Source of the DNA: an uncultured Flavobacteriales bacterium
GTDB taxonomy: Bacteria; Bacteroidota; Bacteroidia; Flavobacteriales_E; Vicingaceae
Assembly (NCBI GenBank): GCA_905479915.1
Contig: CAJQOH010000021.1
Location: forward strand, 1 to 64,000
Length of the DNA stretch: 64,000 nt
Direction: 5' to 3'
The position numbers were made by a program, and so were the translations under genes. Below are positions 2,527 to 44,241 of the stretch, one piece after another (within the stretch, counting starts at the first letter, position 1; the number at the start of each line of letters is the position of its first letter). A model generated the notes under the pieces. That model was not told the DNA's origin, did not search any database, and was given only the letters and a program-made list of their open reading frames with translations.

Positions 2527-4785
2527 ATGAAAAGACAATTTTACTGTTTTGTATTCAGTGTTATTTTATTATTAGTTTCTTTCCGTGTTTCTGCACAGTA
2601 TGATTCTAGGGGGAAGTCTTTTAATTATGAAGATGCTGAAAGTTTTTATAATGCAGAGAATTATTACGATGCATTGCCTTTATATGAAGCCTTAGTAACC
2701 GATAACCCTAAGGTAACAGAGTATTATCTCAAGATTGGTATTTGTCATTTACACCTTACAGTTTCTCCAGAAAAAGCAATAGATTATATTGAGAAAGTTT
2801 ATGAAAAAAAACCTAAAACTGAAAATGTTCAATATTATTTGGGTAAAGCTTATGCGTTAAATTATAAGTTTGATTTGGCTATTGAGACTTTTAATAAAGC
2901 TCTTTCTAATTCAAAAACATCAGATGATATTAAAAATGAAATTCCTCTTTTAATAAAACAATGTGAAAATGGGAAGCTTTTGATTCAAGATTCTATTGAT
3001 GTAGAAATAGTTAATGTAGGAGCTCCTATTAATACGATGGACAATGAATACAGTCCAACTGTTAATGCAGATGAAACTACACTAATATATACTTACAAGG
3101 GACCTAAGAGTATAGGGGAGCGACAAGATGAATTTAATAGACCTTTGGTAAATGGTAATTTTTATGAAGATATTTACGTTTCATATTATACAGAAAATAC
3201 TTGGTCAACTCCTAGTTCTATAAGTGATAGTATTAATTCAGAGTTACATGAAGCAAGTATTTCATTGAGTCCGGATGGGCAAAAGTTATATGTATATAAA
3301 GATACTAAAGAGTACTCTGGAGATATTTTCAAAACAAAAAAAGAAAATGGAGAATGGGGAGAGCCTGTAGGTTTGTTTATTAACTCTGAACATTGGGAAG
3401 GTCACGCAACAGTTGCTCCTAATGGTGAGTTTATGATATTCTCTAGTGATAGACCTGGTACATTAGGTGATAGAGATTTATATAGTGCAGAATTATTAGA
3501 AGATACTACTTGGGGAAATGTTAGGAATTTGGGACCTACAATTAATACACCATATAATGATGATGCCCCATTTATTCATTCAGATGGAGTAACGTTTAAT
3601 TTTAGTTCTGAAGGTCATTCTTCAATGGGAGGATATGATATTTTTGAATCTAAAATATTAACCGATACTACTTATTTAGAACCTAGAAATATTTGTTATC
3701 CTATAAATACGACTTCAAATGATATTTTCTTTTATGTATCTGGAAAAGGGAATGCCTACTATTCTTCGGCAAGAGAAGGTGGTTTTGGTCAGCATGATAT
3801 CTATAGGATTAAAGTGAATGACGTTGTAACAAGTAAACCTGTTTTACTGGTTAAGGGGGTGATTACAACAGATGGGATTTTTGATGTTGCAAAGGTTACT
3901 GTTAGAACTGAATCAGGAAAAGATTTAGGGACATACTATTCCGATTTGTCAGATGGTAAATATCAATTTTATGTTGATTTAAATGATTATTATGTAATTA
4001 CTTATGAGGTTGATGGGGTTTCATCACAAATTGCTTCTATTGATGCTACAGGTTATACTGAGTATACCGAAATTGAAAAAAACATAAATTTTTTATCTAG
4101 AGATGTAAATATTAGCGGTATAGCAATTACTAAAGAAAACTCATTGTCTCCGATTATGAGTTTAAGAGTCAACCTATCGAATACAGACAATACGTTTTCT
4201 GAAACAGATACGATAGATGGTGAAGGAAGATACGATTTTAATAATCTACCTAATGATGATTATTATTTAATGTTTTTAGATGAGGAAGATGAAAAGTTAA
4301 TAGAAGATACTTCTTATATTTTTAAAGGACAAATAACGCTTAAAGGCTTACCATATGCTAATGCAATGATTAATGGAGAGCGAACTGATGATGAAGGTAA
4401 TTTTCGAATTGAAATGAGAAACCGTTATTTAGACTTACTTAACGGTACTGGGTCTATTTTGGATGAAATGTCGGCAGAAGATATTATGCTAAGGTTTGGA
4501 GATCAATCTTCTAAAGGCTTGGTTTTTAGTGTGCAAGTTGCAGCATATACTAATGCAAAAAATTACAGAAGTAACCATTTGGAAGGCCTAGGAAAAATAG
4601 AAACTGTTATTTTAGAGGATGGAATAACAAGATTTACTATTGGCCAGTTTACTACTTTAAGAGCCGCAAAGGCACTTCAGACTAAGGCAGTAGAAAAAGG
4701 GCAAGATGATGCATTTGTAATTCTATTTATAGATGGTAAAAGAACTTACCTAGATGAACTGGTTAATACCGGAATATTTAAATAA
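2527..4785 (+). CDS. Envelope protein: signal peptide, TPR, PD40/WD40-like propeller, regulatory-like beta domain, C-terminal SPOR-like domain (PorE-like architecture without OmpA domain)
   Basis: TPR-like N-terminus; PD40 motifs (FMIFSSDRPGTLGDRDLYSA, FNFSSEGHSSMGGYDIFES); C-terminal FSVQVAAYTN...ITRFTIGQFTTLRAAKALQTKA...AFVILFIDGKR. Confidence 0.75.
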   Translation: MKRQFYCFVFSVILLLVSFRVSAQYDSRGKSFNYEDAESFYNAENYYDALPLYEALVTDNPKVTEYYLKIGICHLHLTVSPEKAIDYIEKVYEKKPKTENVQYYLGKAYALNYKFDLAIETFNKALSNSKTSDDIKNEIPLLIKQCENGKLLIQDSIDVEIVNVGAPINTMDNEYSPTVNADETTLIYTYKGPKSIGERQDEFNRPLVNGNFYEDIYVSYYTENTWSTPSSISDSINSELHEASISLSPDGQKLYVYKDTKEYSGDIFKTKKENGEWGEPVGLFINSEHWEGHATVAPNGEFMIFSSDRPGTLGDRDLYSAELLEDTTWGNVRNLGPTINTPYNDDAPFIHSDGVTFNFSSEGHSSMGGYDIFESKILTDTTYLEPRNICYPINTTSNDIFFYVSGKGNAYYSSAREGGFGQHDIYRIKVNDVVTSKPVLLVKGVITTDGIFDVAKVTVRTESGKDLGTYYSDLSDGKYQFYVDLNDYYVITYEVDGVSSQIASIDATGYTEYTEIEKNINFLSRDVNISGIAITKENSLSPIMSLRVNLSNTDNTFSETDTIDGEGRYDFNNLPNDDYYLMFLDEEDEKLIEDTSYIFKGQITLKGLPYANAMINGERTDDEGNFRIEMRNRYLDLLNGTGSILDEMSAEDIMLRFGDQSSKGLVFSVQVAAYTNAKNYRSNHLEGLGKIETVILEDGITRFTIGQFTTLRAAKALQTKAVEKGQDDAFVILFIDGKRTYLDELVNTGIFK

Positions 4786-4899: not shown

Positions 4900-7800
4900 A
4901 TGAAAAAAACATTACTATTTATTTCTATATTCTCTGCCTTATCGCTTTCAGCGATGGAAGAAACAATTGTTTTAACAGGAAAAAAAGCCTCAGAAAAGGT
5001 TCGTAATAGTGAAATGGTGAGGCTGAAAAGTTTTACCAACGTTCCTAATTATGTGAAATTTAGAAAAGGAAAAGAAATTCCATTAGAAAAACTAGAAGGA
5101 TGGCTAAGTCAATTTTATAATGGAGACGCTAAATATGGCATTAAACTTCTTAAAAAGGAAGTAGGAAGTCTAGGTCTAACTCATTACCGTTACCAACAAA
5201 CAGTTAATGGTACGCCTGTAGAATTATCTGCGTTTTTAGCACATGTAAAAAATGGATTGGTAATTTCTGTTAATGGAGAGTTGTTTAGTGATATAAGCAT
5301 TCAAACTTCAGTTTCTTTGACTGAAGGATCAGCTTTAAGTGCAGCTTTAAGTCATATAAGTGCAGAATTGTATAAGTGGCAAATTCCTGCAGAAGAAGAT
5401 CATTTAAAGAGAGAACAAAACGATCCGAACGCAACCTATTATCCTTCAGGAAGCTTGGTATTAATTAATGAAGGAGGTAAAGTTGAAGATCAATTCGTAT
5501 TGGCTTACAAATTCAATATTTATGCTCAAAAACCTTTTTCTAGGAGAGATATCTATGTTAATGCGCAAACAGGAGAAATAGTTTGGGAACAATCAAAAAT
5601 ACACCACGTTGATGCTCAAGGAACAGCGGTTACAGCATATAGCGGAACTAAAACTATGACGACTGATAGTTTAAGTCCAACAAGTTTTAGGTTGAGGGAG
5701 TCAGGAAGAGGTAATGGTATTGAAACTTTTGATATGAATTTGGGAACGAATTATGGTGCAGCGGTAGACTTTACTGATAATGATAATAATTGGAATAATG
5801 TGAATGTAGATTTGGATGAGTATGCTACTGATGCACATTGGGGGTCTGAAATGACTTATGATTATTTTCTAAACGAACATGGAAGAAATAGTATTGATGA
5901 TAATGGATTCACCTTAAGAAGTTATGTACATTTTGATTTAGTAGCATTTGGATATCCTTCTCAGTCAAATGCTTTTTGGGACGGACAAAGAATGACATAC
6001 GGAGATGGAGGTAATGGTTTAACACCTTTAACAGCTCTTGATATCTGTGGTCATGAAATAACACATGGATTAACAACCAATACAGCTGATTTAATTTATC
6101 AAGATGAATCAGGGGCATTGAATGAGTCGTTTAGCGATATATTTGGTAATTCAATAGAAATAGTTGCTAGACCTACTCAAAATAGCTGGCAAATGGGAGA
6201 GGATATGAATTGGGTAATTCGAGACATGTCTAATCCAAATAATAACAATGACCCAGATACATATTTTGGTACCGATTGGCAGCCCTTAGGGGGAGCAGAT
6301 AATGGAGGTGTTCACTCTAATAGTGGAGTACAAAATTTTTGGTATTACTTACTTGTTAATGGAGGAACAGGAACAAATGATAACGGAGATAGTTATACTG
6401 TAAATGGGATAGGCTTGTCGGATGCAGGTAAGGTTGCGTTTAGAAACTTAACAGTTTATTTAACACAAAGTTCTCAGTTTGCTGATGCACGTTTTTATGC
6501 AATTCAATCTGCCATTGATTTATTTGGAGCATGTACTCCTGAGGTTCAGGCAGTGACAAATGCATGGTATGCTGTAGGTGTAGGTTCTGAATACTTACCA
6601 TATACATTAAGTGATTTTGATGTTCCAGTAGATTCATCGTGTATCGCTCCATTTACGACTACTTTTAATAACCTAAGTATAAATGGTATTACCTATAGTT
6701 GGGATTTTGGTGATATGAGTCCTGTAAATACACAAACAAACCCAACTCATACTTATAATAATTATGGAGTATATACTGTTGAGTTAATTGCTGATGGTGG
6801 AGTATCATGTGGCGCAGATACCACGGCTAAAGTTGCATATATAGTAGTGGATTCTTTGTTGCCATGTATTTCTACTTTACCAGGAACAGGAACAATGAAT
6901 ACCCAAACAAGTTGTGTAGGTACTGTTTATGATAGTGGTGGGCCAGGTTCTGATTATGGAGCAGATCAAGATGCTCAGATTACAATATCTCCAACAGGAG
7001 CATCTAGTATTGATTTAACTTTTGTAAGTTTTGATGTAGAGGCAGGGCAATCTGGTTCTTGTAATTATGATTATGTGAGAGTTTACGATGGTGCAAATAC
7101 TACATCTCCACTGATAGGAACTTATTGTAATAACAATGTTCCTACAACAATTTCATCAACAGGAGGATCAATTACTATAGTATTTCATTCAGATCAAGCT
7201 ACAGAGGGTGCAGGGTTTCAAATCGATTGGCAATGTCAAATGCCAAATCAAGCTCCAGGTACAGATTTTAGTGTAGATGTAGATACAACATGTACTGGAA
7301 TAGTAAACTTTACAGATCAATCTACAAATGGACCTACATCTTGGCTTTGGGATTTTGGAGATAGTGGGTCAGGGTCTACATTGCAAAACCCAAGTTACAT
7401 ATATACCTCTAATGGTTTGTATACAGTAGAGTTAACAGCAACTAATATCATAGGGTCAAATTCTGTGATTAAAACAGCATTAATTTATGTTGACTTACCA
7501 GTGGCACCTGTTTTATCAGGAGATTCGATTTGTGAAAATAACCCAGCCAATTTATCAGGTACAGGATCTGGAACTTTAAAATGGTATTCAACAGCTGCAG
7601 GAGGAACAGCATTAAATACAGGTTTAACGTATACTACACCTATATTAACATCAACAACAACTTATTATGCTGAAAATGTTATTGTTGCTCCTAGTCAAAC
7701 TTTAGGTAAGCCTAATACTACCGGTGGAGGAAATAACTTTAATAACAATCATTATTTAGTTTTTGATGTGTACCAACAGATGGAAATAGAATCAGTAGTT

Positions 7801-8424
7801 GTTGAATCAGGTGCAACTGGTAATAGAACGATTGAATTGAGAAATGCTTTTGGAGGATTGTTGCAGTCAAAAACTGTTAATATTCCTATAGGAACTCAAA
7901 CAGTAGCATTAGGATTTGTTGTAACACCAGGATCTAATTATCAATTAGGACTTTCAAATGGGTCGAATATTGATATGTATAGAAATAATGCAGGTGTTAG
8001 TTATCCTTATACATTAAATGGAGTTGCTTCAATTACTAAGAGTAGTGCAAATCAAAACGGTGGATTAGATCATTACTATTTCTTTTACGATTGGAAAGTT
8101 AAAGAAATGGATTGTGTAAGTTCTAGGACTCCAGTTACTGCAATAGTTAGTGTTTGTACTGGAATTAATGAATTAAATGAAGATTCTCATGTAACATCAT
8201 TTATGAATCCATCTAATAATTTACAATTAGATATGGTTGGCCTTAGCGGTAATTATAAGTTAATGATATTAAATGCTCTTGGGCAGGTTATAGTATCTGA
8301 ACAAATAAGTGTTGATTCAAAAGTACAAACTGAAATTATCAAGATGCAGCATATTTCTAAAGGATTGTATTATGTAAATCTTTATAGTCAAGATGACAAT
8401 TATTCGATGAAGATAGTTAAGTAG
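4900..8424 (+). CDS. Secreted M4 (thermolysin-like) metallopeptidase with propeptide, PKD, CUB, second PKD, Ig-like region and T9SS C-terminal sorting domain
   Basis: DICGHEITHG...ESGALNESFSDIFGN; PKD motifs YSWDFGD and WLWDFGD; CUB-like segment; C-terminus KGLYYVNLYSQDDNYSMKIVK. Confidence 0.93.
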   Translation: MKKTLLFISIFSALSLSAMEETIVLTGKKASEKVRNSEMVRLKSFTNVPNYVKFRKGKEIPLEKLEGWLSQFYNGDAKYGIKLLKKEVGSLGLTHYRYQQTVNGTPVELSAFLAHVKNGLVISVNGELFSDISIQTSVSLTEGSALSAALSHISAELYKWQIPAEEDHLKREQNDPNATYYPSGSLVLINEGGKVEDQFVLAYKFNIYAQKPFSRRDIYVNAQTGEIVWEQSKIHHVDAQGTAVTAYSGTKTMTTDSLSPTSFRLRESGRGNGIETFDMNLGTNYGAAVDFTDNDNNWNNVNVDLDEYATDAHWGSEMTYDYFLNEHGRNSIDDNGFTLRSYVHFDLVAFGYPSQSNAFWDGQRMTYGDGGNGLTPLTALDICGHEITHGLTTNTADLIYQDESGALNESFSDIFGNSIEIVARPTQNSWQMGEDMNWVIRDMSNPNNNNDPDTYFGTDWQPLGGADNGGVHSNSGVQNFWYYLLVNGGTGTNDNGDSYTVNGIGLSDAGKVAFRNLTVYLTQSSQFADARFYAIQSAIDLFGACTPEVQAVTNAWYAVGVGSEYLPYTLSDFDVPVDSSCIAPFTTTFNNLSINGITYSWDFGDMSPVNTQTNPTHTYNNYGVYTVELIADGGVSCGADTTAKVAYIVVDSLLPCISTLPGTGTMNTQTSCVGTVYDSGGPGSDYGADQDAQITISPTGASSIDLTFVSFDVEAGQSGSCNYDYVRVYDGANTTSPLIGTYCNNNVPTTISSTGGSITIVFHSDQATEGAGFQIDWQCQMPNQAPGTDFSVDVDTTCTGIVNFTDQSTNGPTSWLWDFGDSGSGSTLQNPSYIYTSNGLYTVELTATNIIGSNSVIKTALIYVDLPVAPVLSGDSICENNPANLSGTGSGTLKWYSTAAGGTALNTGLTYTTPILTSTTTYYAENVIVAPSQTLGKPNTTGGGNNFNNNHYLVFDVYQQMEIESVVVESGATGNRTIELRNAFGGLLQSKTVNIPIGTQTVALGFVVTPGSNYQLGLSNGSNIDMYRNNAGVSYPYTLNGVASITKSSANQNGGLDHYYFFYDWKVKEMDCVSSRTPVTAIVSVCTGINELNEDSHVTSFMNPSNNLQLDMVGLSGNYKLMILNALGQVIVSEQISVDSKVQTEIIKMQHISKGLYYVNLYSQDDNYSMKIVK

Positions 8425-30531: not shown

Positions 30532-31386
30532 ATGATGAATTCAAAAGTAGAAATGGAATATATAGAGTTTAAGGCATCAATATTGCCTTTAAAGGTAGGT
30601 AGAGAAGTGTTGATAGCCGAATTGTCTGAAGTTGGTTTCGAAAGTTTTGTTGAGACTGATCAAGGGGTGGAGGCATATATTCAATCTGAACAGTTTGAAG
30701 AATCAATCATTAATAGTTTAAACATTTTGGAAAATGTAAACTTCCAAATAGATTATTCAGTGAAAGTTATTGAGGATCAAAATTGGAATGCAGAATGGGA
30801 AAAAAACTTTAATCCAATTCATGTTGAAAATAGATGTAGTATTAGAGCTCCTTTTCACGAGAAAATAGATAGTATTGAATTTGATATTATTATAGATCCA
30901 AAAATGTCTTTTGGAACAGGGCATCATGAGACTACATATTTAATGGTAAAGCGATTGTTGGATATGAATTTGCAGGATAAGAAGGTGTTGGATATGGGGT
31001 GTGGAACTGGAGTTTTGGCAATTTTGTCTAAAATGAAAAATGCTCAATATGTAAAGGCTATAGATATTGATGAATGGGCCTATAATAATACATTAGAAAA
31101 TATTCGGAATAATAATTGTGAAGAGATAGAAGTTGAATTTGGCGGTGCTGAAAAAATAGGAACGATTAGTTTTGATGTACTAATTGCGAATATTAACAGA
31201 AATATATTGTTAAACGATATGAAAAATTACGTTAAATCAATGGCTGTTGAAGGAAGTTTATTGTTAAGTGGTTTTTTTAGCTCTGATAAAGAAACATTGT
31301 TAGAAACAACCTCTAAATTAGGACTGGAATTGATATATACTGAAAGTAAGAATGATTGGACTTTATTACATTTAATAAAAAGATGA
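30532..31386 (+). CDS. prmA: Ribosomal protein L11 methyltransferase
   Basis: MSFGTGHHETTYLMVKRLL, VLDMGCGTGVLAILSKMKNAQYVKAIDIDEWAYNNT. Confidence 0.93.
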   Translation: MMNSKVEMEYIEFKASILPLKVGREVLIAELSEVGFESFVETDQGVEAYIQSEQFEESIINSLNILENVNFQIDYSVKVIEDQNWNAEWEKNFNPIHVENRCSIRAPFHEKIDSIEFDIIIDPKMSFGTGHHETTYLMVKRLLDMNLQDKKVLDMGCGTGVLAILSKMKNAQYVKAIDIDEWAYNNTLENIRNNNCEEIEVEFGGAEKIGTISFDVLIANINRNILLNDMKNYVKSMAVEGSLLLSGFFSSDKETLLETTSKLGLELIYTESKNDWTLLHLIKR

Positions 31387-34300
31387 ATAAATTTTATAAA
31401 TATATAATTGTTGTAATATGTTTTTTAACAGCTCTTTCGAGTTATTCTCAAACTAAAATAAAGCATTTCTCATCAGATTCATCTCTATTTTTTCAGGAGA
31501 TGGAAGAGTTTTTAACCTATTCTAGAAAGCAAGATGGAGTTTTGGTAATGGATCAATTTTCATGGTCATGGTTTGGGGGTAAATTTTCAGACAAAGAAAA
31601 AGAAGGGGTTTATAAAATTTGTAATTTGATGCTTAAGAAAAGAAAGAAAGCTTTTCCTGATTTTAAAAACTACTTGTTTTCTGTTTCTGAATTTGTAAAT
31701 AGCGAATATCAATCTGAAGAGAGTTTTGAGAGTTGGCAAAAAATACTGGTTAAATTGATTAATGGTAAAAGTAAAAAGCGATTTACGGATTACCTAAAAG
31801 CTTGTAATAGCTTATTTAGTGAGAATTTACTGTATAAATCAGCTTCTAATTCTTGGGCTGCGAATAATAGTAATTATGCATTTGGTTACGATAGTCTGCC
31901 AACCATAGAGTTTGAATCTCTAAACTTAACATGTTATTCTAAAGGAGACAGCTCTGTTATTTACGATACGAAAGGGATCTATTACCCAACAGAATCAAAA
32001 TGGGTTGGAGATGGTGGTAAAATTAATTGGAAGAGAGCAGGTTTTTCTTCAGATTCAGTTTATGCAGAAATTAATGATTATACCATAAGTACTAAGTCTC
32101 CTAAATATACAATTAAGGATGTTAAATTTTATGACCTCTATTATTTTGAAGAACCAATGATTGGGGTTCTTAATGAGAAGGTATTAGCTAATGTTAAAGC
32201 ATTAAAAGCAACTTATCCTAGATTTGATTCTTATGAAGCAATATTTGTGATTAAAGATATATCAAAAGATGTAGATTATATAGGAGGATTCTCCCTTTAT
32301 GGAAGAAAGGTTTTAGGAAGAGGGACGGAAGATCAAGATGCGTATTTGATTTTTAATAGAAAGAACCTTCCTTTTTTAAAGGTGGCATCTAAAACTTTTA
32401 TTATTAAACCAGAACGTATTGTATCTCAAATTGCTGCGACTACATTTTATATTAAAGAAGATTCTATATTCCACCCAGGTCTTTCGTTTAAGTATTTTGT
32501 AAATGATAGAAATGTATCTTTAATTCGAGACAATAAAGGAATCAAAATAACACCTTACTTTAATTCATATCATCAGGTAGATATGGATTTTGAGTCATTA
32601 AATTGGAAGATTGATTCACCCATGGTTGAGTTTAGGAACATGAAAGGGGGAACAAGAACTAGAGCAACATTTATTTCATCGAATTATTTTAGAAAAAGTG
32701 ACTATATGAAGTTGATGGGGCTTGAATCTAAGCACCCACTATATACCATTTTTAAGTTGGCTAATAAGTTGGATACAAATTTCATAACAAACGATGATGT
32801 AGCAAGTTTTACATTAAAGTCTTATTCTACTATTGAAACAATGTTGTTGGACTTGTCAAATAAAGGATTTATAAATTATAATTATGATGATAAATCTTTT
32901 ATCGTCAAGCCCAAATTGATTGATTGGGTTCAGGCAAGTGGAGGTAATGTAGATTATGATGTTATTGGGTTTTTATCCAATGTAAAAGGGTATAGTAATG
33001 CAAAATTAAGTCTTTTAAATTATGACCTGCAATTAAGTGGGGTGAATAGTATTAATGTTAGTGATTCTCAAGAGGTTATAATTTATCCATCACATCGGGA
33101 AGTGACATTAAAAAAGAACCGAGATTTTGATTTTAGTGGGGTAGTTCAAGCTGGACGTTTTGATGTTATGGGGAGTAACTTTAAATTTAAGTACGATGAA
33201 TTTAAAATTGAGATGCCAAATGTTGATTCTTTAAGAATATATGCTGAAATACCTCGTAAAGATAAAAATGGAAACCCTATCATAAGACCTGTAAAAACGA
33301 TGATAGAAAAGATAACGGGAGACTTATTGATAGATAAACCGGATAATAAATCAGGTGTTAAGCCTGCAGATGAATATCCAATTTTGAATAGTTATAAAGA
33401 TTCCTATGTTTTTTATGATAAGAAATCGATACAGGGCGGTGTGTATAAAAAGGATGATTTCTATTTTCATGTTGAACCATTTACAATTGATAGTTTAGAT
33501 AATTTTGATAATGAACAACTTCAATTCAAAGGAACAATGTTGTCTGCAGGAATATTTCCTGATTTTGATGAGACGTTAACTTTACAGCCAGATCATTCTT
33601 TAGGTTTTGTTAGAGAGACACCTAAAGGAGGTTTCCCTATGTATGGAGGAAAAGGAACATTCCATGATACGATTAAATTGAGTAATGAAGGGTTAAGAGG
33701 AAGTGGTAAATTAGAGTATATAGCGTCAACAACGTATTCAAATGATTTTATTTACTTTCCAGATTCGATGAATGCAATAGCTCAAAATTACAATGTGAAA
33801 GAGAGTCCTGTTGAAGTTGAATTCCCTCCAGTGGAAGGTGAAGATGTTATGACTCGATGGTATCCAAGTAAAGATATTATGATTCATAGAGAAAGAAGTA
33901 AACCTATTGCTATGTATGATATGAAATCTTACATGCATGGTCAAACAATGATTCGACCAGATGGATTATCAGGTTCAGGAGTATTTGAATTTAAAAAAGC
34001 TGAATTAGAAGCAAATCTAATTAAGTTTAAGTTTAAAGATTTCCAATCCGATACAGCAGACTTTAGATTAAAAGACGAAGGTAATACAGATGTTGAAGCT
34101 TTGGCTTTCTCAACAGTAAATGTCAATGCTTATGTAACTTTTGATGGTAGGTATGGTCAATTTAGGTCAAATGGAGGTGGGTCATATATTAAGTTTGATC
34201 CAATGCAGTACATCTGTTATATGGAGGAGTTTAAATGGTTTATGGATAATGATGATATTGAGCTTTCTGCTGGAGAAGCTAAATCGACAGATGCTTCTGG

Positions 34301-35837
34301 GGTTAAGTTAGATGGAGCCCAGTTTATATCGGTTCATCCAGATCAAGATTCTTTAAGTTTCTTTTCATCAAAAGCAAAATATGATTTGAAGAAAAAGGTA
34401 ATTTATGCTAAAGGAGTTAAGTTTATGAATGTTGCCGATGCAATGCTTTATCCGGATAGTGGAAATGTTACTATTGATAAAAAAGCAAAAATGCGAACGC
34501 TTAATAACTCTAGAGTTGTTGCAAGTTTTGTAACTCAGAACCATAATATGTACAACTCTACAATAAATGTTTTTGGTAAGAAGAAGTATGCTGGTAGTGG
34601 GTATATAGATTATGTTGATGAAATAGAAAAAACACAAACAATTTATTTAGAAAATATAGGGGTAGATACAACAGGCCAGACTTATGCTACAGCCGAGCTG
34701 AAAGATACTGCTAATTTCACTCTAAGTCCAAATTATGAGTTCTATGGAAAAGTTAAATTGTTTGCTAATAATGAGTATTTAACATTTGATGGTTATTCAA
34801 GGGTATTTCATGAGTGTGATTTATTAAGTAGAAATTGGTTTAGTTTTGAATCTGAAATAAACCCTACAGAAATATATATACCTGTAGATAGTACTACTAA
34901 AGATATAAGTGGAAACCCTTTATTGGCGAGCGTTTTCTTGAGTCCAGATTCTCTAGGAATATATACGTCTTATTTAAATACGAAGAAAAAGTATAGTCAT
35001 ATCCCTGTATTGCCAGCAGAAGGGTTTTTATTCTATGATAAGGAGAAAGAAGAATATAAGATCTCTAATAGAGATAAGTTACAAGAAATGTCTTTCGGAG
35101 GAAACTATTTGAGTTTAAATACTAAAAACTGTAAAGTGTACGGGGAAGGTACTATCAATTTAGGTGAGGAGGTAGGTCAAGTAGAGCTTCAAACCGCTGG
35201 TGTCATTGAACATAATCAATTAGATGACGAAGTGATATTTGATATGGTAATGACAACAGATTTTTTCTTTAATGATGAATCCCTAAAGAAGATGACTAAA
35301 CAGCTACAAGAGGCAAGTTCTTTAAAACCTGCTAAATTAGATAGACCTACTTTTGAAAAAGGGTTAAGAGAAATTGTAGGCTCTGTAGAAGGCGATAAGT
35401 TAATTGCACAGGCTAATTTAAATGGAGAGTTTAAGAAAGTGCCTAAATCTCTAGAAAAAACCTTTGTATTTAATGATTTGAAAATGAGATGGAATGATGA
35501 TAGCAAGTCATATAAGTCATTTGGTACTATAGGTATTAGTAATATTAAGAATAAGCAAATCAATAAATATGTAACAGGAAAGATAGAGTTGGTAAAGAAG
35601 AGAAGTGGAGATATCTTAACGATATATATAGAGGTAGACAGAAATAATTGGTATTTCTTTACCTATACTCGAGGGATTATGCAGTCAATATCTTCTAATG
35701 CGGACTTTAATTCTGCGATTACTGAAACAAAAACTGATAAACGAAAATCAAAGGCAGAAAAAGGTCAAGAGTCATACCAGTATATGTATTCAACAGATAG
35801 GAAAAAGAAAGATTTTATTAGAAAATTTGAAAATTAG
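31383..35837 (+). CDS. Giant (~1484 aa) exported protein of unknown function
   Basis: Signal peptide MNKFYKYIIVVICFLTALSSYSQ; single uninterrupted beta-rich-looking ORF; ATG overlaps prmA TGA (ATGA). ORF opens at 31356. Confidence 0.85.
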   Translation: MNKFYKYIIVVICFLTALSSYSQTKIKHFSSDSSLFFQEMEEFLTYSRKQDGVLVMDQFSWSWFGGKFSDKEKEGVYKICNLMLKKRKKAFPDFKNYLFSVSEFVNSEYQSEESFESWQKILVKLINGKSKKRFTDYLKACNSLFSENLLYKSASNSWAANNSNYAFGYDSLPTIEFESLNLTCYSKGDSSVIYDTKGIYYPTESKWVGDGGKINWKRAGFSSDSVYAEINDYTISTKSPKYTIKDVKFYDLYYFEEPMIGVLNEKVLANVKALKATYPRFDSYEAIFVIKDISKDVDYIGGFSLYGRKVLGRGTEDQDAYLIFNRKNLPFLKVASKTFIIKPERIVSQIAATTFYIKEDSIFHPGLSFKYFVNDRNVSLIRDNKGIKITPYFNSYHQVDMDFESLNWKIDSPMVEFRNMKGGTRTRATFISSNYFRKSDYMKLMGLESKHPLYTIFKLANKLDTNFITNDDVASFTLKSYSTIETMLLDLSNKGFINYNYDDKSFIVKPKLIDWVQASGGNVDYDVIGFLSNVKGYSNAKLSLLNYDLQLSGVNSINVSDSQEVIIYPSHREVTLKKNRDFDFSGVVQAGRFDVMGSNFKFKYDEFKIEMPNVDSLRIYAEIPRKDKNGNPIIRPVKTMIEKITGDLLIDKPDNKSGVKPADEYPILNSYKDSYVFYDKKSIQGGVYKKDDFYFHVEPFTIDSLDNFDNEQLQFKGTMLSAGIFPDFDETLTLQPDHSLGFVRETPKGGFPMYGGKGTFHDTIKLSNEGLRGSGKLEYIASTTYSNDFIYFPDSMNAIAQNYNVKESPVEVEFPPVEGEDVMTRWYPSKDIMIHRERSKPIAMYDMKSYMHGQTMIRPDGLSGSGVFEFKKAELEANLIKFKFKDFQSDTADFRLKDEGNTDVEALAFSTVNVNAYVTFDGRYGQFRSNGGGSYIKFDPMQYICYMEEFKWFMDNDDIELSAGEAKSTDASGVKLDGAQFISVHPDQDSLSFFSSKAKYDLKKKVIYAKGVKFMNVADAMLYPDSGNVTIDKKAKMRTLNNSRVVASFVTQNHNMYNSTINVFGKKKYAGSGYIDYVDEIEKTQTIYLENIGVDTTGQTYATAELKDTANFTLSPNYEFYGKVKLFANNEYLTFDGYSRVFHECDLLSRNWFSFESEINPTEIYIPVDSTTKDISGNPLLASVFLSPDSLGIYTSYLNTKKKYSHIPVLPAEGFLFYDKEKEEYKISNRDKLQEMSFGGNYLSLNTKNCKVYGEGTINLGEEVGQVELQTAGVIEHNQLDDEVIFDMVMTTDFFFNDESLKKMTKQLQEASSLKPAKLDRPTFEKGLREIVGSVEGDKLIAQANLNGEFKKVPKSLEKTFVFNDLKMRWNDDSKSYKSFGTIGISNIKNKQINKYVTGKIELVKKRSGDILTIYIEVDRNNWYFFTYTRGIMQSISSNADFNSAITETKTDKRKSKAEKGQESYQYMYSTDRKKKDFIRKFEN

Positions 35838-35908
35838 TATAGAGAAAAATCTATTTTTTGCATCCATATAATATATTCTTAATTTTGACAATTGGCTTCG
35901 GCTTATAA

Positions 35909-38900
35909 ATGATAAGAAAAAATATACATAAAATAACATTAACAGTAGTGGCCCTACTGTTTTTTGCTGTTAATTCTAGAGCACAATATGCTTCAGAAGA
36001 TGAGATGAAAACAGCTGCAAATGAAATGTTTGAAGAGGCGAACTATATAGGTTCTATCAAGTTATTTTCTCAATTATTAAGTACATACCCTAAAGATCCT
36101 AGTTATAATTATAAATACGGTGCTTGTGTTCTTTTTGGATCAAGAGATAAAGAAAAAGCATTAAAGTATTTAAAGTTTGCTGTTTCTAAATCTAATGTAG
36201 ATCCTGAAGCATTTTATTTTTTAGCGAAAGCTTATCATCACAATTATCAATTTGCTCCGGCTATAGTTTATTACAATAAGTATAAAGGAAAAACTACAGC
36301 TAAAGATCATCAAAAATATAATATTGATAGAGAGATTAAGATGTGTGAAAATGGAAGTCAGTTGATAAAAAGTATGACGAACATTGGTGTTTTGAGTAAA
36401 AAAGAGATTAAAGCGACAGATTTTTTTAGATCATACGAATTGAATGGAATAGGAGGTAAGATAATTGTTAAGCCTGATGATTTTAAAAGTAAGTTAGATA
36501 TTAAGAAAAATGAGAACTCGGTTATTTACCTAGGAGAGAAGAAGGATATGGTTGTTTATTCCTCTTATGGTAAAACGGATGACAATGGTAAAGATATTTA
36601 TAGGGTTGTTAGACTTCCAAGTGGAGAATGGAGTAAGCCAACATCTATAGGAGATGAAATAAATACAGAGTTTGATGAAGATTATCCTTTTTTACACCCA
36701 GATGGAAGAACGCTTTACTTTAGTTCTAAAGGGTATAACAGTATGGGGGGGTATGATATTTTTAAATCAACATTAGACCCTAGTACTGGTAAATGGACTT
36801 ATCCAGAAAATTTAGACTTTCCAATAAATACTCCAGATGATGATATTTTATTTATTTCTGATATAGATAATAAGTTAGCTTACTTTGGTTCTTCTAGAGC
36901 AAGCAAGCAAGGAGAATTAACTGTTTATAGAGTTAAGGTAGATCCTGAACCAGTAGGAAGTTCAGTTATTAAGGGATTTTTTGTGTCAGAATCTAACCCT
37001 ACTATGAAATCTGCAACAATTACGATAAAAGATGCAGAGCAAGATAGGAGATATGGTGTGTATAAAACAAATAATGAATCAGGTGAATACCTACTTGCTT
37101 TTCCTAGTAATGGAGGGAAGTTTAAAATCTTAGTAGAGACAACAAGTGATGCTCCTGTTCATGCAGCCATTATAGAGTTGCCAGAATTAGATGGATTTAG
37201 AGCGTTAAAGCAAGAGTTAAGATTAGTTGGAGAAGGAGATGCTGAAAAGTTAGTTGTTAAAAACCTATTTGATGAAACGGATGAGTTTGATATCAATGAC
37301 CCATTAGTTGTTCAGAATATTTTAAAAGAAAGAGCTAAGCTAGAAGTTAATACAACAGAAGAGGAAGTTAACAACTCTTTAGCGAACAGTTTAAAAGCAG
37401 CTTTAGAGAATCAGTCAAAACCTAAATCTAGTTATAGTGATTTGTCGGATGATCAATTGGTGAATAAAACTGATGAAGTAGCTGCTAATATTATAGATCA
37501 AACAGCAACATCAAAAGAACAAGCCAATAAATCGTATGAAATAGCAAATACAAAAAGTGCCGAGGCTAAGGAATTGTATAATGAGGCAAAAACATTAAGT
37601 GCTAATGGAGATGTTGAGAAAGCAGAAGCTAAAAAGTTAGAAGCAGCTAAGTTGATAAATGAGGTTGTTGCTGCATTAGCTATAGCTAAAACATTAGATA
37701 ATGAAGCTGTTGAGAGAGAGAGTGATTTAGAGAAAGTAAAATCACTTCAAGAAAATATCAATACTAGTATTGATAATGGAAATAGAGAAGAGGCTGAAGC
37801 TAAAATGACAGAATTAGATGAAATAGCTTCTGCAACTTATCATACGGAGTCAGCTCTAGAAAAAGAAGAGGAACTTTCTGATGATAATTTAGCTGAAAAA
37901 GAGAAAGTATACACTGAAAACAATGAGTATTTAACTGAATTAACAGATAGAGAGTATGAGTTAAAAGAAACAATTAAAAAATTAGAAGAGAAGAAGGAAA
38001 CTACAAAAAAGAAAAGTGAAATAGCTGATATAGATACAAGAATTGAAGCTTTAAAAATAGATGTAGAAGATACTAAGTTTGATATAGATAATGCAAAAAA
38101 TAAAACAACTAAGATTGATCTGTCATATAATAAAGCTAAGTCAGAAGCAGCAATTACTAAAGACGTAATTGCTTCAGTGGGAGAGGGAGAAGTTGTGGGA
38201 ACACCTATTAGTGAAGCAAGTAAACTTCAACTAGAGAATGATGTTGTTTACTTTGAAAATGAAGGTATGGTTGGAATTTATCCAACTGAAAGTGAAATTT
38301 CTTCAGAAGAACCAATAGTAGCTGTTGAAAGTTACAATTTAGAAGAACATAAAGATGAATATGCTATTATTGATGATTCGGGTGAAATCATTGATTACAA
38401 TACAACATACAGTTCTAAAATAGTTGATGCTGATAGTTCTACTGACCCAGTAGAACGAGCTGAAATTGTAATGCAAATTAATGAGAGTTGGATTAAAGAT
38501 ATCGGTGATGAAATTGCGATAAGAGAAAAGCAATTGAATGCTGAAACAAGCACTTCAGAAAAAACTAAATTAGAAGATAGAATTGAGGTATTAAAGGCAT
38601 TAAAATTAGAGAAGCAAAAAGAGTTTATTGAAAATGAGAAGTTGATTGCTGACAATAAACCTATTTTAACAGAAGAGACAACAAGTCCTGTTGTTTCAAC
38701 TAGTTCTGAAGAGGATGTGAATATCATGAATACTGATGGGACTCTAATTGATTATGAAACAAAATACAATTCAGAATTAGATGCTTTAGGAGATGAAGAA
38801 ACGTATGCTACTTCGGCTAAAAAAGCAGAAATTCATGGCAATTGGGCAAATGCTACTGAACAAGAAATTCTAATTAAGAAAATGGCGTTGGTAGAAGCTG

Positions 38901-41900
38901 ATGAGGCTGATAAAAATGAGATAGAAAATGAAATAGCTGTTTTAGAGAATACCTTGGTAGAACAGCAGGAATTTGCAGGATTGTATGAAATGCAAGCTGA
39001 ATCTATGAAACCAGAAGGAGTTGTAGAGGAAGAGCCAATAGCTAGTACAGAAGAGGCGGTAACAACAACTGAAGAACCAATAGTTGAAAATGAAGAGCCA
39101 GTAGCACGTGTTGGATCGAACTATGAAGAAGAGTTAGAAGCTATAGGAGAAGAAGATACTTATGAATCAAATGTTAAGAAAGCAGCAATACATAATGATT
39201 GGGCAAAAGCAACAGAAAAAGAAATAGCAACCAAAAAAGAAGCTTTAAGTGTTGCTGATGAAGCAGATAAGAATGGTATTGAAAATGAAATAGCTGTTTT
39301 AGAGAATACCTTGGTAGAACAGCAGGAATTTGCAGGATTGTATGAAATGCAAGCTGAATCTATGAAGCCAGAAGGAGTTGTAGAGGAAGAACTAATAGCT
39401 AGTACAGAAGAAGCAGTAACAACAACTGAAGAAGCAGTAGTTGAAAATGAAGAACCAGTTGCACGCGTTGAATCAAACTATACTGAAGAGTTAGAGGCTA
39501 TAGGAGATGAAGATACTTATGAATCAAATCTTAAGAAAGCAGAAATTCATGGTAATTGGGCAAAAGCAACAGAAAAAGAAATAGCAACCCAAAAAGAGGC
39601 TTTAAGTGTTGCTGATGAAGCAGATAAGAATGGTATTGAAAATGAAATAGCTGTTTTAGAGAATACCTTGTTAGAGCAGCAAGAGTTTGCAGGGTTGTAT
39701 GAAATGCAAGCTGAATCTATGAAACCAGAAGGAGTTGTAGAGGAAGAGCCGATAGCTAGTACAGAAGAGGTAGTAACAACAACTGAAGAACCAATAGTTG
39801 AAAGTGAAGAGCCAATCGCTAATTCTGAGAGTATTTTAAATACTGAGTTAAAAGAAGAGGATTTAACAGTAAATAATTTAAATGATCCATCAGATGATTT
39901 TTCTAATTTGAAGTACAACAATAAGTTTAATTATCAATCTACTCAATCAAAAAATTCAGTAGCTACAATAGCTGATTTGAAAAATGAAGCAAGAGAATTA
40001 AAAGAAGAATCTGAGGTTAAAATAAATACAGCTGGTAATGCTTCTTCAGAAGAAGAGAAGGAACAATTAACTGCAGAAGCTAATGAATTGCTTGATCAAT
40101 CAAACGGTAAACAAGAGCGTATTGCTAAAGTTTATGAGGGAGCTAATAGAAGTGAATTTTATAATAATCAGGCTACACTTTCTGAGTTGAAATCAGAAAA
40201 TCCTAATAAAGGGTCGAATGAAACAATAATGGCAGAACTATTAGTTGAGGAATCTGATAACTATTATGATCAAGCAAAACGAAAGCGAGAACAGGCAGCT
40301 GATATGCCAAATTTCACTTCAAAAACAGTTACCTTACAACAAGCATATGAGCTTGAAATGAAAGCAATAGAGAAACAAAAAATGGCAATGAATAAATTGT
40401 CTGGAGGTAGTACAAGTGAACCAATAGTTAGTACTACAACAACAGAACCAGTTTCTGATAATGAGAACCCTGTTGCAACAAGTGATGAAATATCAACAGA
40501 AGATCAAACAGTTCTTTTAAACCTTTCACCTGTAGAAATTTCAGCAATTCAAGATTCAGAAGATTTTCAAGAATATGCAGCTTTAAAGAAAACGAAAAGA
40601 AGGTTAGTTAAAGAAGCTAAAGTAGAATATGTTGAGGCTGCTAAGTTTGAAGAGGAAGCAAAAGATCAAGAACAATTAGGACTTAGTTTAAAAGCTATGG
40701 CTGAAGGTGCTGCAACAGAAGAGGATAAAGCTAAAAAGCTTTCTCAAATAGAGAAATTAAATAAAATGATTGCGGATAATAAATCAAAATCAGCAGAGTT
40801 AAAAAGTAGTGCAGCTGATAAAGAAACTCAAGCAAAAGAGGCAGGAGACAAATCAGATTTCATATTAATTAATACGGATGAAGATGTAGCGAATAATTAT
40901 ACTGCGATAGAGAAAGCAGAAACCTTTGACGGTGAATTTATGGCTAAAGTAATGGCTAGAACTTCAACACCTTCTCCAGCCGTTGATGAACCATTGGCTT
41001 CTATAGAAGAACCAATAGTAGAAGAGGTAGCCACCGAAGAGCCAATAGCAGAAGAACCTGTAATAGCGAATGAGGAGGTAGTTGTGGAAGAAAATCCTGT
41101 TGCAACAAGTGAAGAACCAATAGTTGAAGAGGTAGCTACTGAAGAGCCGATAGCAGAAGAACCTGTAATAACGAATGAGGAAGTAGTTGTTGAAGAAAGC
41201 CCTGTTGCAACAAGTGAGGAACCAATAGTTGAAGAGGTAGCTACTGAAGAGCCGATAGCAGAAGAACCTGTAATAACGAATGAGGAAGTAGTTGTGGAAG
41301 AAAATCCAGTTGCTACTAACGAAGATCCTATAGTTGAAGAACCTGTAGTTACAAATGAAGAGCCTAAAACTGAAGAGCCAATTGTAGAGGAAACGGCAAC
41401 AAATGATCAGACTTTGGAGAATATAGATGTAATACCAGAAGTACTTAGTAAATCAATATTTGTTATTAATAACAATAAAGCTGCTTATAATAGTAGCAAA
41501 AGAATACCAACAACAACAAAATTACCAGAAGGGTTAGTCTTTAAGGTTCAAGTTGGTGCATTTAGAAATGCTATTCCACAAGATCACTTTAAAGGGTTTG
41601 CACCAATATTGGCAGAAGATGCAGGGAATGGGATAACACGATATACTGCAGGTTTATTTAAGACATTTAACACTGCAAATGAAGCAAAAGGATCTATTCG
41701 ATCTATTGGGTATTCTGATGCCTTTGTTGTAGCATTTTATAACGGTAAAAGAATTAACATTAACGAGGCTAGGGCTATGATAGATTCTGGTACTGAAACT
41801 AACGATTCATTTGAGAATACTCCTATAGTAAGTACTGAAACTGTTGAGAATACGGAAACACCTACAGTAACTGAAGAACCTGTAGCTACAGAAACAAATG

Positions 41901-42604
41901 ATACACCAATTGTAACTACTGAAGAAGTTAAGGATGGTGTTTCTACAGATGTAAGAAATATTACTGGAGCCTTTTATACAATACAGGTAGGAGTTTACTC
42001 TAAAGAGGTAACTGCAGGACAATTAAATAATGTTTCACCTATCAATAGTGAAAGAACATCTGGCGGATTAATTCGTTATACTTCTGGAGTTTATAAAACA
42101 TTAGAAGATGCAAATACTGCAAAAGAGAGAATAAGAGGGTTGGGTATTACTGATGCATTTGTAATTGCTTATAATGGAGGAGTAAAAATTAAAGTGGCAG
42201 AAGCAACTGCTCTATTAAATAATGACAATCCAACTAGTGAATCTGTAGAGGAGGAGGTTGAGGTACCAGTTGAGGCGCCAGTTGAGGAAATTCCAATAGA
42301 GAGTGAAGTTGTTCAAAATGATTTGAATTTAGAATTTAAAGTAATGTTGGGAGAATATGTAGAAGATGTACCTGTTGATGAAGCTGGAATATTTTTAAAA
42401 TTATCGGAGAAAGGAATTACGAATTACGAAGAAAACGATAAAACAATTTATATTGTAGGCTCTTTTACCGACTATCAATCTGCATTAGATTTGCAAATTG
42501 AGGTAAAAGAAATGGGGGTTAAAAATCCAAAGACTATAGCTTTTAAAGATGGAGAAGATATTACTATAGAAGAAGCATTGGAACTAATTAAAAACAATAA
42601 ATAA
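35909..42604 (+). CDS. Giant (2231 aa) envelope protein: TPR, PD40, regulatory-like domain, acidic coiled-coil repeats, three C-terminal SPOR-like domains
   Basis: N-terminus resembles the 2527..4785 product; YFSSKGYNSMGGYDIFKS; SPOR-like FKVQVGAFRN, YTIQVGVYSK and FKVMLGEYVE. Confidence 0.8.
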   Translation: MIRKNIHKITLTVVALLFFAVNSRAQYASEDEMKTAANEMFEEANYIGSIKLFSQLLSTYPKDPSYNYKYGACVLFGSRDKEKALKYLKFAVSKSNVDPEAFYFLAKAYHHNYQFAPAIVYYNKYKGKTTAKDHQKYNIDREIKMCENGSQLIKSMTNIGVLSKKEIKATDFFRSYELNGIGGKIIVKPDDFKSKLDIKKNENSVIYLGEKKDMVVYSSYGKTDDNGKDIYRVVRLPSGEWSKPTSIGDEINTEFDEDYPFLHPDGRTLYFSSKGYNSMGGYDIFKSTLDPSTGKWTYPENLDFPINTPDDDILFISDIDNKLAYFGSSRASKQGELTVYRVKVDPEPVGSSVIKGFFVSESNPTMKSATITIKDAEQDRRYGVYKTNNESGEYLLAFPSNGGKFKILVETTSDAPVHAAIIELPELDGFRALKQELRLVGEGDAEKLVVKNLFDETDEFDINDPLVVQNILKERAKLEVNTTEEEVNNSLANSLKAALENQSKPKSSYSDLSDDQLVNKTDEVAANIIDQTATSKEQANKSYEIANTKSAEAKELYNEAKTLSANGDVEKAEAKKLEAAKLINEVVAALAIAKTLDNEAVERESDLEKVKSLQENINTSIDNGNREEAEAKMTELDEIASATYHTESALEKEEELSDDNLAEKEKVYTENNEYLTELTDREYELKETIKKLEEKKETTKKKSEIADIDTRIEALKIDVEDTKFDIDNAKNKTTKIDLSYNKAKSEAAITKDVIASVGEGEVVGTPISEASKLQLENDVVYFENEGMVGIYPTESEISSEEPIVAVESYNLEEHKDEYAIIDDSGEIIDYNTTYSSKIVDADSSTDPVERAEIVMQINESWIKDIGDEIAIREKQLNAETSTSEKTKLEDRIEVLKALKLEKQKEFIENEKLIADNKPILTEETTSPVVSTSSEEDVNIMNTDGTLIDYETKYNSELDALGDEETYATSAKKAEIHGNWANATEQEILIKKMALVEADEADKNEIENEIAVLENTLVEQQEFAGLYEMQAESMKPEGVVEEEPIASTEEAVTTTEEPIVENEEPVARVGSNYEEELEAIGEEDTYESNVKKAAIHNDWAKATEKEIATKKEALSVADEADKNGIENEIAVLENTLVEQQEFAGLYEMQAESMKPEGVVEEELIASTEEAVTTTEEAVVENEEPVARVESNYTEELEAIGDEDTYESNLKKAEIHGNWAKATEKEIATQKEALSVADEADKNGIENEIAVLENTLLEQQEFAGLYEMQAESMKPEGVVEEEPIASTEEVVTTTEEPIVESEEPIANSESILNTELKEEDLTVNNLNDPSDDFSNLKYNNKFNYQSTQSKNSVATIADLKNEARELKEESEVKINTAGNASSEEEKEQLTAEANELLDQSNGKQERIAKVYEGANRSEFYNNQATLSELKSENPNKGSNETIMAELLVEESDNYYDQAKRKREQAADMPNFTSKTVTLQQAYELEMKAIEKQKMAMNKLSGGSTSEPIVSTTTTEPVSDNENPVATSDEISTEDQTVLLNLSPVEISAIQDSEDFQEYAALKKTKRRLVKEAKVEYVEAAKFEEEAKDQEQLGLSLKAMAEGAATEEDKAKKLSQIEKLNKMIADNKSKSAELKSSAADKETQAKEAGDKSDFILINTDEDVANNYTAIEKAETFDGEFMAKVMARTSTPSPAVDEPLASIEEPIVEEVATEEPIAEEPVIANEEVVVEENPVATSEEPIVEEVATEEPIAEEPVITNEEVVVEESPVATSEEPIVEEVATEEPIAEEPVITNEEVVVEENPVATNEDPIVEEPVVTNEEPKTEEPIVEETATNDQTLENIDVIPEVLSKSIFVINNNKAAYNSSKRIPTTTKLPEGLVFKVQVGAFRNAIPQDHFKGFAPILAEDAGNGITRYTAGLFKTFNTANEAKGSIRSIGYSDAFVVAFYNGKRININEARAMIDSGTETNDSFENTPIVSTETVENTETPTVTEEPVATETNDTPIVTTEEVKDGVSTDVRNITGAFYTIQVGVYSKEVTAGQLNNVSPINSERTSGGLIRYTSGVYKTLEDANTAKERIRGLGITDAFVIAYNGGVKIKVAEATALLNNDNPTSESVEEEVEVPVEAPVEEIPIESEVVQNDLNLEFKVMLGEYVEDVPVDEAGIFLKLSEKGITNYEENDKTIYIVGSFTDYQSALDLQIEVKEMGVKNPKTIAFKDGEDITIEEALELIKNNK
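38759..39829 (+). repeat. Intragenic 357-bp (119-aa) tandem repeats, three copies (approximate bounds)
   Basis: Copy 2 starts at SNYEEELEAIG (tcg 39116), copy 3 at SNYTEELEAIG (tca 39473), exactly 357 bp apart; copy 1 in register and more divergent at its 5' end. Confidence 0.95.
41006..41320 (+). repeat. Intragenic 105-bp (35-aa) tandem repeats, three full copies plus a degenerate partial
   Basis: EEPIVEEVATEEPIAEEPVI[AT]NEEVVVEE[NS]PVAT[SN] starting at 41006, 41111 and 41216; next E[ED]PIVEE at 41321. Confidence 0.96.
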
Positions 42605-42951: not shown

Positions 42952-43761
42952 ATGAAAGTATTTAAAGTAACAGCAACAGTAGTTGTAATAACACTTGTAA
43001 TTATATCTTGTTCAACAGTTCCAATTTCAGGAAGAAAACAAATTAGTTTGTTACCAGAAAGTCAAATGATGAGTATGAGTTTAACACAATACCAGGCTTT
43101 TTTAAATGAAAATAAAGTTGTTCCTGATAATATGGCACAGGCTAAGATGGTTAAAAGAGTAGGACAACGTATTGCGCATGCTGTTGAAAAATACATGAAA
43201 GATAACCATATGTCTAGTAGGATAAAAGGATATAAATGGGAGTTCAATTTAGTAGATGAAAATACGGTTAATGCTTGGTGTATGCCAGGAGGTAAAGTAG
43301 TGGTTTATACAGGAATACTGCCTGTTACAAAAACTGAAGAAGGTTTAGCGGTAGTTATGGGACATGAAATAGCTCATGCAATTGCTCGTCATGGAAATGA
43401 AAGAATGAGCCAAGGGATGGTTGCTCAAGGAATTACTACAGGTTTGGCTGTAGCAATGAGAGATAAGCCTCAAGCTACACAAGCAATATTTTTGGGTGCT
43501 GTTGGTTTAGGAAGTAATGTTGGTATGTTGGCTTTTGGTAGAAATCAAGAGAGTGAGGCGGATAAATTAGGAATGGTATTTATGGCTATGGCAGGATATC
43601 AACCTTCAGAAGCAATTCCTTTTTGGGAAAGAATGAAAGCTGTTGGAGGAGGAGGTGGAACTCCTGAATTTTTAAGAACCCATCCGAGTGAAAATATTAG
43701 AATTGAAAGAATAAAGGAATGGTTACCCAATGCTGAATCTTATTACCAGAAAGCGAATTAA
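42952..43761 (+). CDS. M48 family metallopeptidase, lipoprotein
   Basis: Lipobox ISCSTVPISGRKQISLL; VVMGHEIAHAIARHGNERMSQ; ESEADKLGMVFMAMAGYQP. Confidence 0.94.
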   Translation: MKVFKVTATVVVITLVIISCSTVPISGRKQISLLPESQMMSMSLTQYQAFLNENKVVPDNMAQAKMVKRVGQRIAHAVEKYMKDNHMSSRIKGYKWEFNLVDENTVNAWCMPGGKVVVYTGILPVTKTEEGLAVVMGHEIAHAIARHGNERMSQGMVAQGITTGLAVAMRDKPQATQAIFLGAVGLGSNVGMLAFGRNQESEADKLGMVFMAMAGYQPSEAIPFWERMKAVGGGGGTPEFLRTHPSENIRIERIKEWLPNAESYYQKAN

Positions 43762-43773
43762 TAAATAGGCATT

Positions 43774-44241
43774 ATGAAACGACTAATAACATTAATTGCA
43801 GTATCAGTAAGTTTAATCGCTTGTCAACCGGAAGGAAGGGTGTATGTAGAACACCAAGAGCTATCAGCAGAGTTAGAGTGGCTAAAGAGTGATGTTAAAA
43901 CTTTTAAGGTGCCAGTAGAGGATAATGCCGTAAATTATAACTTAAGTCTCTCATTTAGATATGCAACAGGTTATCAATATGAAACAGCAAATGTTAAAGT
44001 AACCGAAACATCTCCAAGTGGAGTTGAAACGGTTAATGAATATGAACTTACAGTAAGAACTCCAGAAGGTGATTACCTAGGTGAAGCTGGTTTAGATATA
44101 TGGGATAGTGAACATTTAGTAGAAGCCAATAAGCAATATGCTGAATCAGGAACATATACCTATGTTATTGAGCAAAACACGCCAGTAGATCCATTAAACT
44201 TTGCAATGGAAATAGGAGTTATTTTAGATAAGGCTAAATAG
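43774..44241 (+). CDS. GldH-like gliding motility lipoprotein (tentative)
   Basis: Lipobox LIACQ; size and YNLSLSFRYATGYQYETANVKVTETSPSG...LTVRTPEGDYLGEAGLDIWDSEHLV resembling GldH layout. Confidence 0.5.
   Translation: MKRLITLIAVSVSLIACQPEGRVYVEHQELSAELEWLKSDVKTFKVPVEDNAVNYNLSLSFRYATGYQYETANVKVTETSPSGVETVNEYELTVRTPEGDYLGEAGLDIWDSEHLVEANKQYAESGTYTYVIEQNTPVDPLNFAMEIGVILDKAK

Follow-up and report, generated by a model that had tools for sequence, protein, structure and literature searches.

What might a bacterium do with a single protein of 2231 residues that joins a TPR-PD40 head to a C-terminal tail of SPOR domains through a very long acidic spacer? The question is raised by a gene in a 64,000-nucleotide stretch of contig CAJQOH010000021.1, from an uncultured Flavobacteriales bacterium (the window, below, means this whole stretch), whose product we call the giant. 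Our preferred answer, to which we give a probability of about one half, is that the giant is a septum-targeted soluble periplasmic scaffold. Its first two SPOR domains (SPOR1 and SPOR2) would bind the peptide-stripped glycan left by amidases and enriched at the septum, as their homology and ligand residues suggest, and their tandem arrangement would add avidity, with the third (SPOR3) more probably serving protein-protein contacts or spacing. The spacer would give reach and flexibility, and the head, made of TPR, beta-propeller and CRD domains, would be the protein-binding end, docking onto a partner that sits in the periplasm or on the periplasmic side of the outer membrane. In this way a complex for envelope building or quality control would be positioned where the wall is being actively remodelled, chiefly at the septum.

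Layout and distribution of the giant

The translated reading frame is free of frameshifts, and Pfam recognises both SPOR (33.6 bits for the whole protein, cut-off 21) and PD40 (29.3 bits, cut-off 20.9). The layout is constant: a type-I signal peptide without lipobox, a TPR domain, a short propeller, a CRD, an acidic helical spacer of variable length and tandem SPOR domains. Because it recurs in orthologues of many families, with head identities of 35-88%, it cannot be due to chance, and a one-off gene or an assembly artefact is ruled out. A search of 60 relatives returned a single strong orthologue for almost all genomes of the same family (head identity 48-88%), together with orthologues in many other families. 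The earlier note on this DNA had made its proposal depend on close relatives sharing the gene, and they do. In a class-wide sample of 295 Bacteroidia genomes, with presence defined as a head match at E <= 1e-48, the giant was found in 138, normally as a single copy, the frame in most cases measuring 1700-2600 aa. Among the 80 named loci are metagenome-assembled genomes of Flavobacteriales and Crocinitomicaceae as well as Salibacter halophilus and Brumimicrobium salinarum; the longest orthologues (L137 and L123) reach 3197 and 3129 aa. By sequence comparison, the giant is an orthologous core gene. The literature searched (SPOR with PD40 and gliding; Bacteroidetes SPOR-TPR proteins), in which subscription journals were thinly covered, held no description of the family, and we found no curated family that describes it.

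Read by eye, the N-terminus (...FFAVNSRA/QYA) has no Cys at the cleavage position and orthologues are mostly alike, from which we infer export by the general secretion route with removal of the signal peptide. An AlphaFold2 model of the head, built on a 22-sequence alignment (mean predicted local distance difference test score, pLDDT, 79.1; predicted template modelling score, pTM, 0.70), has a pLDDT of mostly 80-95 over residues 30-450 and contains TPR helices at 30-155, followed by two strands (161-168 and 183-187), by three complete propeller blades in the stretch 205-343 and by a CRD-like beta domain (352-452). Fold searches gave clean matches to TPR alone (TMt 0.7-0.8 against solved TPR domains), the propeller/CRD part returning low-TM matches. 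Alignment and model agree that the propeller is about two blades shorter than those of own-genome paralogues, with a conserved stretch (FFRSY-L-GIGGKIIVKP) occupying the place of the missing blades. A short propeller conserved in this form sets the giant apart, and it is tempting to speculate that two such half-propellers pair into one six-bladed ring. The head is among the best-conserved parts of the protein.

Pfam, model and composition bear out the overall description in the earlier note of a TPR-PD40 head, a long acidic helical spacer and a SPOR tail. The spacer, which that note took for some 1000 residues of coiled-coil-like sequence, is indeed acidic (net charge -207 over residues ~461-1860) and helical, but coiled coil is predicted in only nine segments totalling ~350 residues, among repeats and Glu-rich linkers. 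A repeat of ~85 aa, judged to be helical by the pattern of its residues, is present in four copies here and in 0-5 copies in orthologues, and in the window a recent 357-bp tandem duplication accounts for part of the array; further modules, such as residues 571-600, 1471-1500 and 1561-1590, are moderately conserved. Given these repeats, duplications and conserved modules and the limited extent of coiled coil, the spacer consists of conserved helical modules strung together with variable linkers and is no single long coiled coil. Its length would change by duplication of helical units.

The three C-terminal SPOR-like domains were placed by the earlier note to within about 20 bases of our coordinates. 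SPOR1 and SPOR2 reach 24.1 and 23.2 Pfam bits when scored with their neighbours, and their PDB search gave a weak match to the SPOR domain of CwlC (E 0.01). SPOR3, which starts at residues 2139-2143, is not recognised by Pfam when taken alone and gave chance helical-repeat matches only in the PDB search; in profile-profile comparison it is homologous to SPOR1 and SPOR2 (probability 98.5, E 1.7e-15, 84 columns). Denuded glycan is contacted in RlpA by Q270 and a basic patch (PMC6895207). In a set of 94 orthologous proteins, which includes a few cases of one genome present in two collections, 93/93 first, 93/93 second and 35/63 third SPOR domains have the Gln that corresponds to Q270, and 92/94, 91/93 and 4/63, respectively, have the Arg that corresponds to R309. 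Since both residues are kept in SPOR1 and SPOR2 and are replaced by Met and Ile in SPOR3 of the window, we read the tail as two probably competent SPOR domains and a diverged third, so that the multiple peptidoglycan binders suggested previously are retained for the first two domains and not for the last. In complete orthologues the extreme C-terminus holds two or three SPOR domains, rarely one or four; L078 and L080 depart from this, with a single weak SPOR and no SPOR found, respectively.

Giant-type SPOR domains also occur elsewhere in this genome. An Amidase_3 protein (L218:2127-3299) has a C-terminal SPOR of the giant's subtype and would make denuded glycan, linking the maker of the substrate to its binder. 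When own-genome proteins other than the giant are scored with the giant-type SPOR profile, the best result (92 bits) comes from the C-terminal SPOR of a 386-aa protein without Pfam match (L204:10467-11627), and two adjacent genes (L210:1684-5328) encode a 507-aa protein with a giant-type SPOR and a PorG/DUF6089-like protein of 689 aa that has three SPOR domains.

Septal targeting and its alternatives

Septal targeting of the giant as a scaffold is supported by the constancy of its architecture across many families, by the ligand residues kept in SPOR1 and SPOR2 together with the amidase of the same SPOR subtype, and by the conserved head with its TPR match. It is also supported by the genes on either side. 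A large secreted-type protein, here termed UP1493, is encoded immediately upstream, at less than 3 kb and on the same strand, in 49 of the 119 genomes in which both genes were located, representing 12 families, and an M48 peptidase lies within 1.2 kb downstream at 29 of 55 testable named loci; UP1493 and this M48 lipoprotease would be the first candidate partners. Several observations weigh against this reading. SPOR1 and SPOR2 retain just one of the three RlpA arginines, other SPOR proteins exist in the genome, and division in general cannot depend on a gene that about half of the class lacks. The giant and UP1493 are non-adjacent in 70 of the 119 genomes, and more than 100 genomes have UP1493 without the giant. 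Because prmA, tpiA and plsY, which also lie in the neighbourhood of the giant, are housekeeping genes, the adjacency with UP1493 may reflect an old gene order and no partnership, and we treat it as no more than a lead.

The giant shares the order of TPR, beta-propeller, CRD and wall-binding domain with PorE (PG1058; NCBIfam NF052230) of the type IX secretion system (T9SS), a predicted outer membrane-associated lipoprotein with an OmpA_C-like domain (PMC5053529). Its head is also related to the TPR-PD40 head of CHU_0125, the OmpA-like outer membrane integrity protein (NCBIfam NF053607), loss of which leads to outer membrane defects and increased vesicle release (PMC5891637). Distant kinship to two families whose members bear OmpA-type wall-binding domains, and this loss phenotype, would suit a general tether between outer membrane and wall, like Pal or OmpA, that acts over the whole envelope rather than specifically at the septum. 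We consider such a tether unlikely, as the giant has no lipobox and thus no direct outer membrane anchor, its wall-binding part consists of SPOR domains with denuded-glycan residues kept instead of OmpA_C, and it scores far below the curated cut-offs of both families (77.5 bits against 600 for PorE, with the best stretch at residues 224-373, and 76 bits against 620 for CHU_0125). In contrast to PorE, it combines a type-I signal peptide with a ~1400-aa spacer and has three complete blades in place of a full-length propeller; like PorE, it has TPR and CRD domains (model, PDB TPR matches, alignments), and unlike both PorE and CHU_0125 it has no OmpA match in Pfam. With no lipobox, a curtailed propeller, no OmpA domain and an NCBIfam score below the cut-off, the giant does not qualify as a PorE, but it may work in a similar scaffold-like manner.

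SPOR1 and SPOR2 resemble the SPOR domains (PF05036) of RlpA, DamX, FtsN and CwlC in their Pfam scores and in retaining the Gln and one Arg of the glycan site. Unlike these proteins, the giant has no enzyme or transmembrane part, and carries two probably competent SPOR domains and a diverged third on a giant scaffold. A divisome regulator like FtsN or DamX, acting on wall synthesis and not carrying an outer membrane-side complex, would be brought to the septum by its tandem SPOR domains, and the genome encodes an amidase with the same SPOR subtype; we nevertheless regard this role as improbable for a protein without the transmembrane anchor and cytoplasmic part of FtsN and DamX, with a TPR-propeller-CRD head typical of outer membrane-side scaffolds, and missing from so many genomes of the class. 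About equally doubtful is a T9SS or gliding accessory, a SPOR-bearing analogue of PorE, for which the partial PorE-profile match in the head, the GldH gene just downstream in the window and two near relatives, and the presence of SprA in the genome can be cited, but against which SprA occurs in 284 of the 295 class genomes and the giant in 138, leaving at least 146 SprA genomes without it, GldH adjacency is lost beyond close relatives, and a 95%-complete genome (G094) has the giant but no SprA match.

SprA being nearly universal in the class, co-occurrence with the T9SS is uninformative, and the neighbouring GldH gene was dropped as evidence for gliding. The earlier note's assignment of the head to an outer membrane or T9SS-type module was not upheld: no outer membrane anchor was shown, there is no specific link to the T9SS, and the propeller is too short. 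The span- or tether-like envelope role that it proposed is plausible.

Superfamily relatives and neighbouring genes

In a tree of TPR-PD40 heads, those of the giants form one clade (97/98 support), sister (100/100) to a ~990-aa family. Representatives of this family (L181:3768-6737, L182:3744-6698) lie beside aminotransferase and CN_hydrolase genes, and no match of this type was listed for the window's own genome. The giant had previously been paired with the product of 2527-4785 in the same window on the basis of shared motifs. Both proteins do contain the ENGSQLI/ENGKLLI and S-MGGYDIF motifs, but motifs of the GGYDIF type occur throughout the superfamily. The tree, in which the 2527-4785 product groups in another clade with own-genome L202:2252-5338 and L208 (100/98), and its position as only the 10th-ranked own-genome relative of the giant head rule it out as the sister paralogue; on this evidence the two window proteins are members of one superfamily and no special pair. 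L202:2252-5338, a close relative of the 2527-4785 product, is a 1028-aa PD40 protein with two SPOR domains. Both resemble the giant in combining a PD40 head with a SPOR-type C-terminus in the same genome, and differ from it in their separate clade, longer propeller and lack of the giant's spacer. Such sequences suggest that SPOR has been joined to PD40 heads more than once.

UP1493 is present in 245 of the 295 class genomes (83%). In the window its ATG overlaps the prmA stop, and in several lineages plsY lies between it and the giant. It belongs to no Pfam or NCBIfam family, and 31 members gave no OstA, LptC or LptD Pfam match. Its model (residues 130-1322; mean pLDDT 86.9, pTM 0.55) is nearly all beta, and in a fold search it gave local matches to LptC and LptA (TMt ~0.5) and a weak one to LptD, for which the whole-length TM is only ~0.1 (query-normalised). 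UP1493 may resemble LptA, LptC and LptD, of the beta-taco/OstA kind, in its predicted extended antiparallel beta fold, and is unlike them in the lack of a Pfam match, in that no outer membrane barrel was shown and in a winged-helix-like insert. This helical insert (residues ~437-518, about 32694-32939) has weak fold matches to MarR-type winged helices, a likeness that is odd for a periplasmic protein. The candidate promoter before the giant is suggestive by position alone, as its pattern occurs four times in the window against 5.5 expected and so is not above chance. Elsewhere in the window, 4900-8424 encodes an M4 metallopeptidase whose PKD and CUB domains are accompanied by a weak T9SS C-terminal sorting domain.

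Table 1. Positions in the window of the giant, its parts and its neighbours.
Feature	Coordinates	Strand	Basis
UP1493, large secreted-type protein, 1483 aa from ATG (~1490 aa)	31386..35837	+	
Candidate Bacteroidetes-type promoter, TTTG-N19-TAnnTTTG	35857..35887	+	Pattern search; in 71-bp gap before giant open reading frame
Giant open reading frame, 2231 aa	35909-42604	+	ATG to stop, uninterrupted frame
Type-I signal peptide, residues 1-25, ...NSRA/Q, no lipobox	35909..35983	+	Translation read by eye, predicted
TPR domain, residues 30-155	35996..36373	+	AlphaFold2 pLDDT about 87-95; PDB TPR matches by sequence and fold
Shortened PD40 beta-propeller, residues 160-345	36386..36943	+	Pfam PD40, model strands, own-genome paralogue alignment
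CRD-like beta domain, residues 352-456, conserved KNLFD at end	36962..37276	+	Model strands, alignments
Acidic Glu/Lys/Ala-rich spacer, residues 457-1860	37277..41488	+	Composition, net charge, conservation profile
85-aa helical repeat copy 1, residues 827-911	38387..38641	+	Profile search over orthologues
85-aa helical repeat copy 2, residues 946-1032	38744..39004	+	Profile search over orthologues
85-aa helical repeat copy 3, residues 1070-1151	39116..39361	+	Profile search; inside recent 357-bp tandem duplication
85-aa helical repeat copy 4, residues 1187-1270	39467..39718	+	Profile search and tandem-repeat finding
105-bp tandem repeat, 3.2 copies, coding Glu/Val/Pro-rich linker	41006..41340	+	Repeat search
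SPOR1, residues 1874-1958	41528..41782	+	Pfam, profiles; glycan-site Gln and Arg kept
SPOR2, residues 2019-2102	41963..42214	+	Pfam, profiles; glycan-site Gln and Arg kept
SPOR3, residues 2139-2231, Gln to Met, Arg to Ile	42323..42601	+	Profile comparison, diverged
M48 peptidase, LoiP/BepA-like, lipobox LVIISC	42952..43761	+	Profile match below curated cut-offs
GldH lipoprotein, beside M48 gene	43774-44241		Pfam 67 bits

A possible envelope system

As a long shot, we propose that the giant and UP1493 form an undescribed envelope system of the Bacteroidia, in which UP1493 would be a periplasmic beta conduit for lipid or lipopolysaccharide. The giant, possibly paired through two half-propellers into a six-bladed ring, would bring UP1493 to septal denuded glycan and so couple outer membrane growth to division, with the M48 lipoprotease serving in quality control. 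UP1493 could be a missing piece of outer membrane biogenesis. A giant of 1700-2600 aa, for which we found neither a curated family nor a paper, is encoded by about half of the Bacteroidia genomes in the sample and, if the septal wall is indeed its target, the giant would offer an entry point to the coordination of outer membrane and wall at division in the Bacteroidota, which is poorly known.

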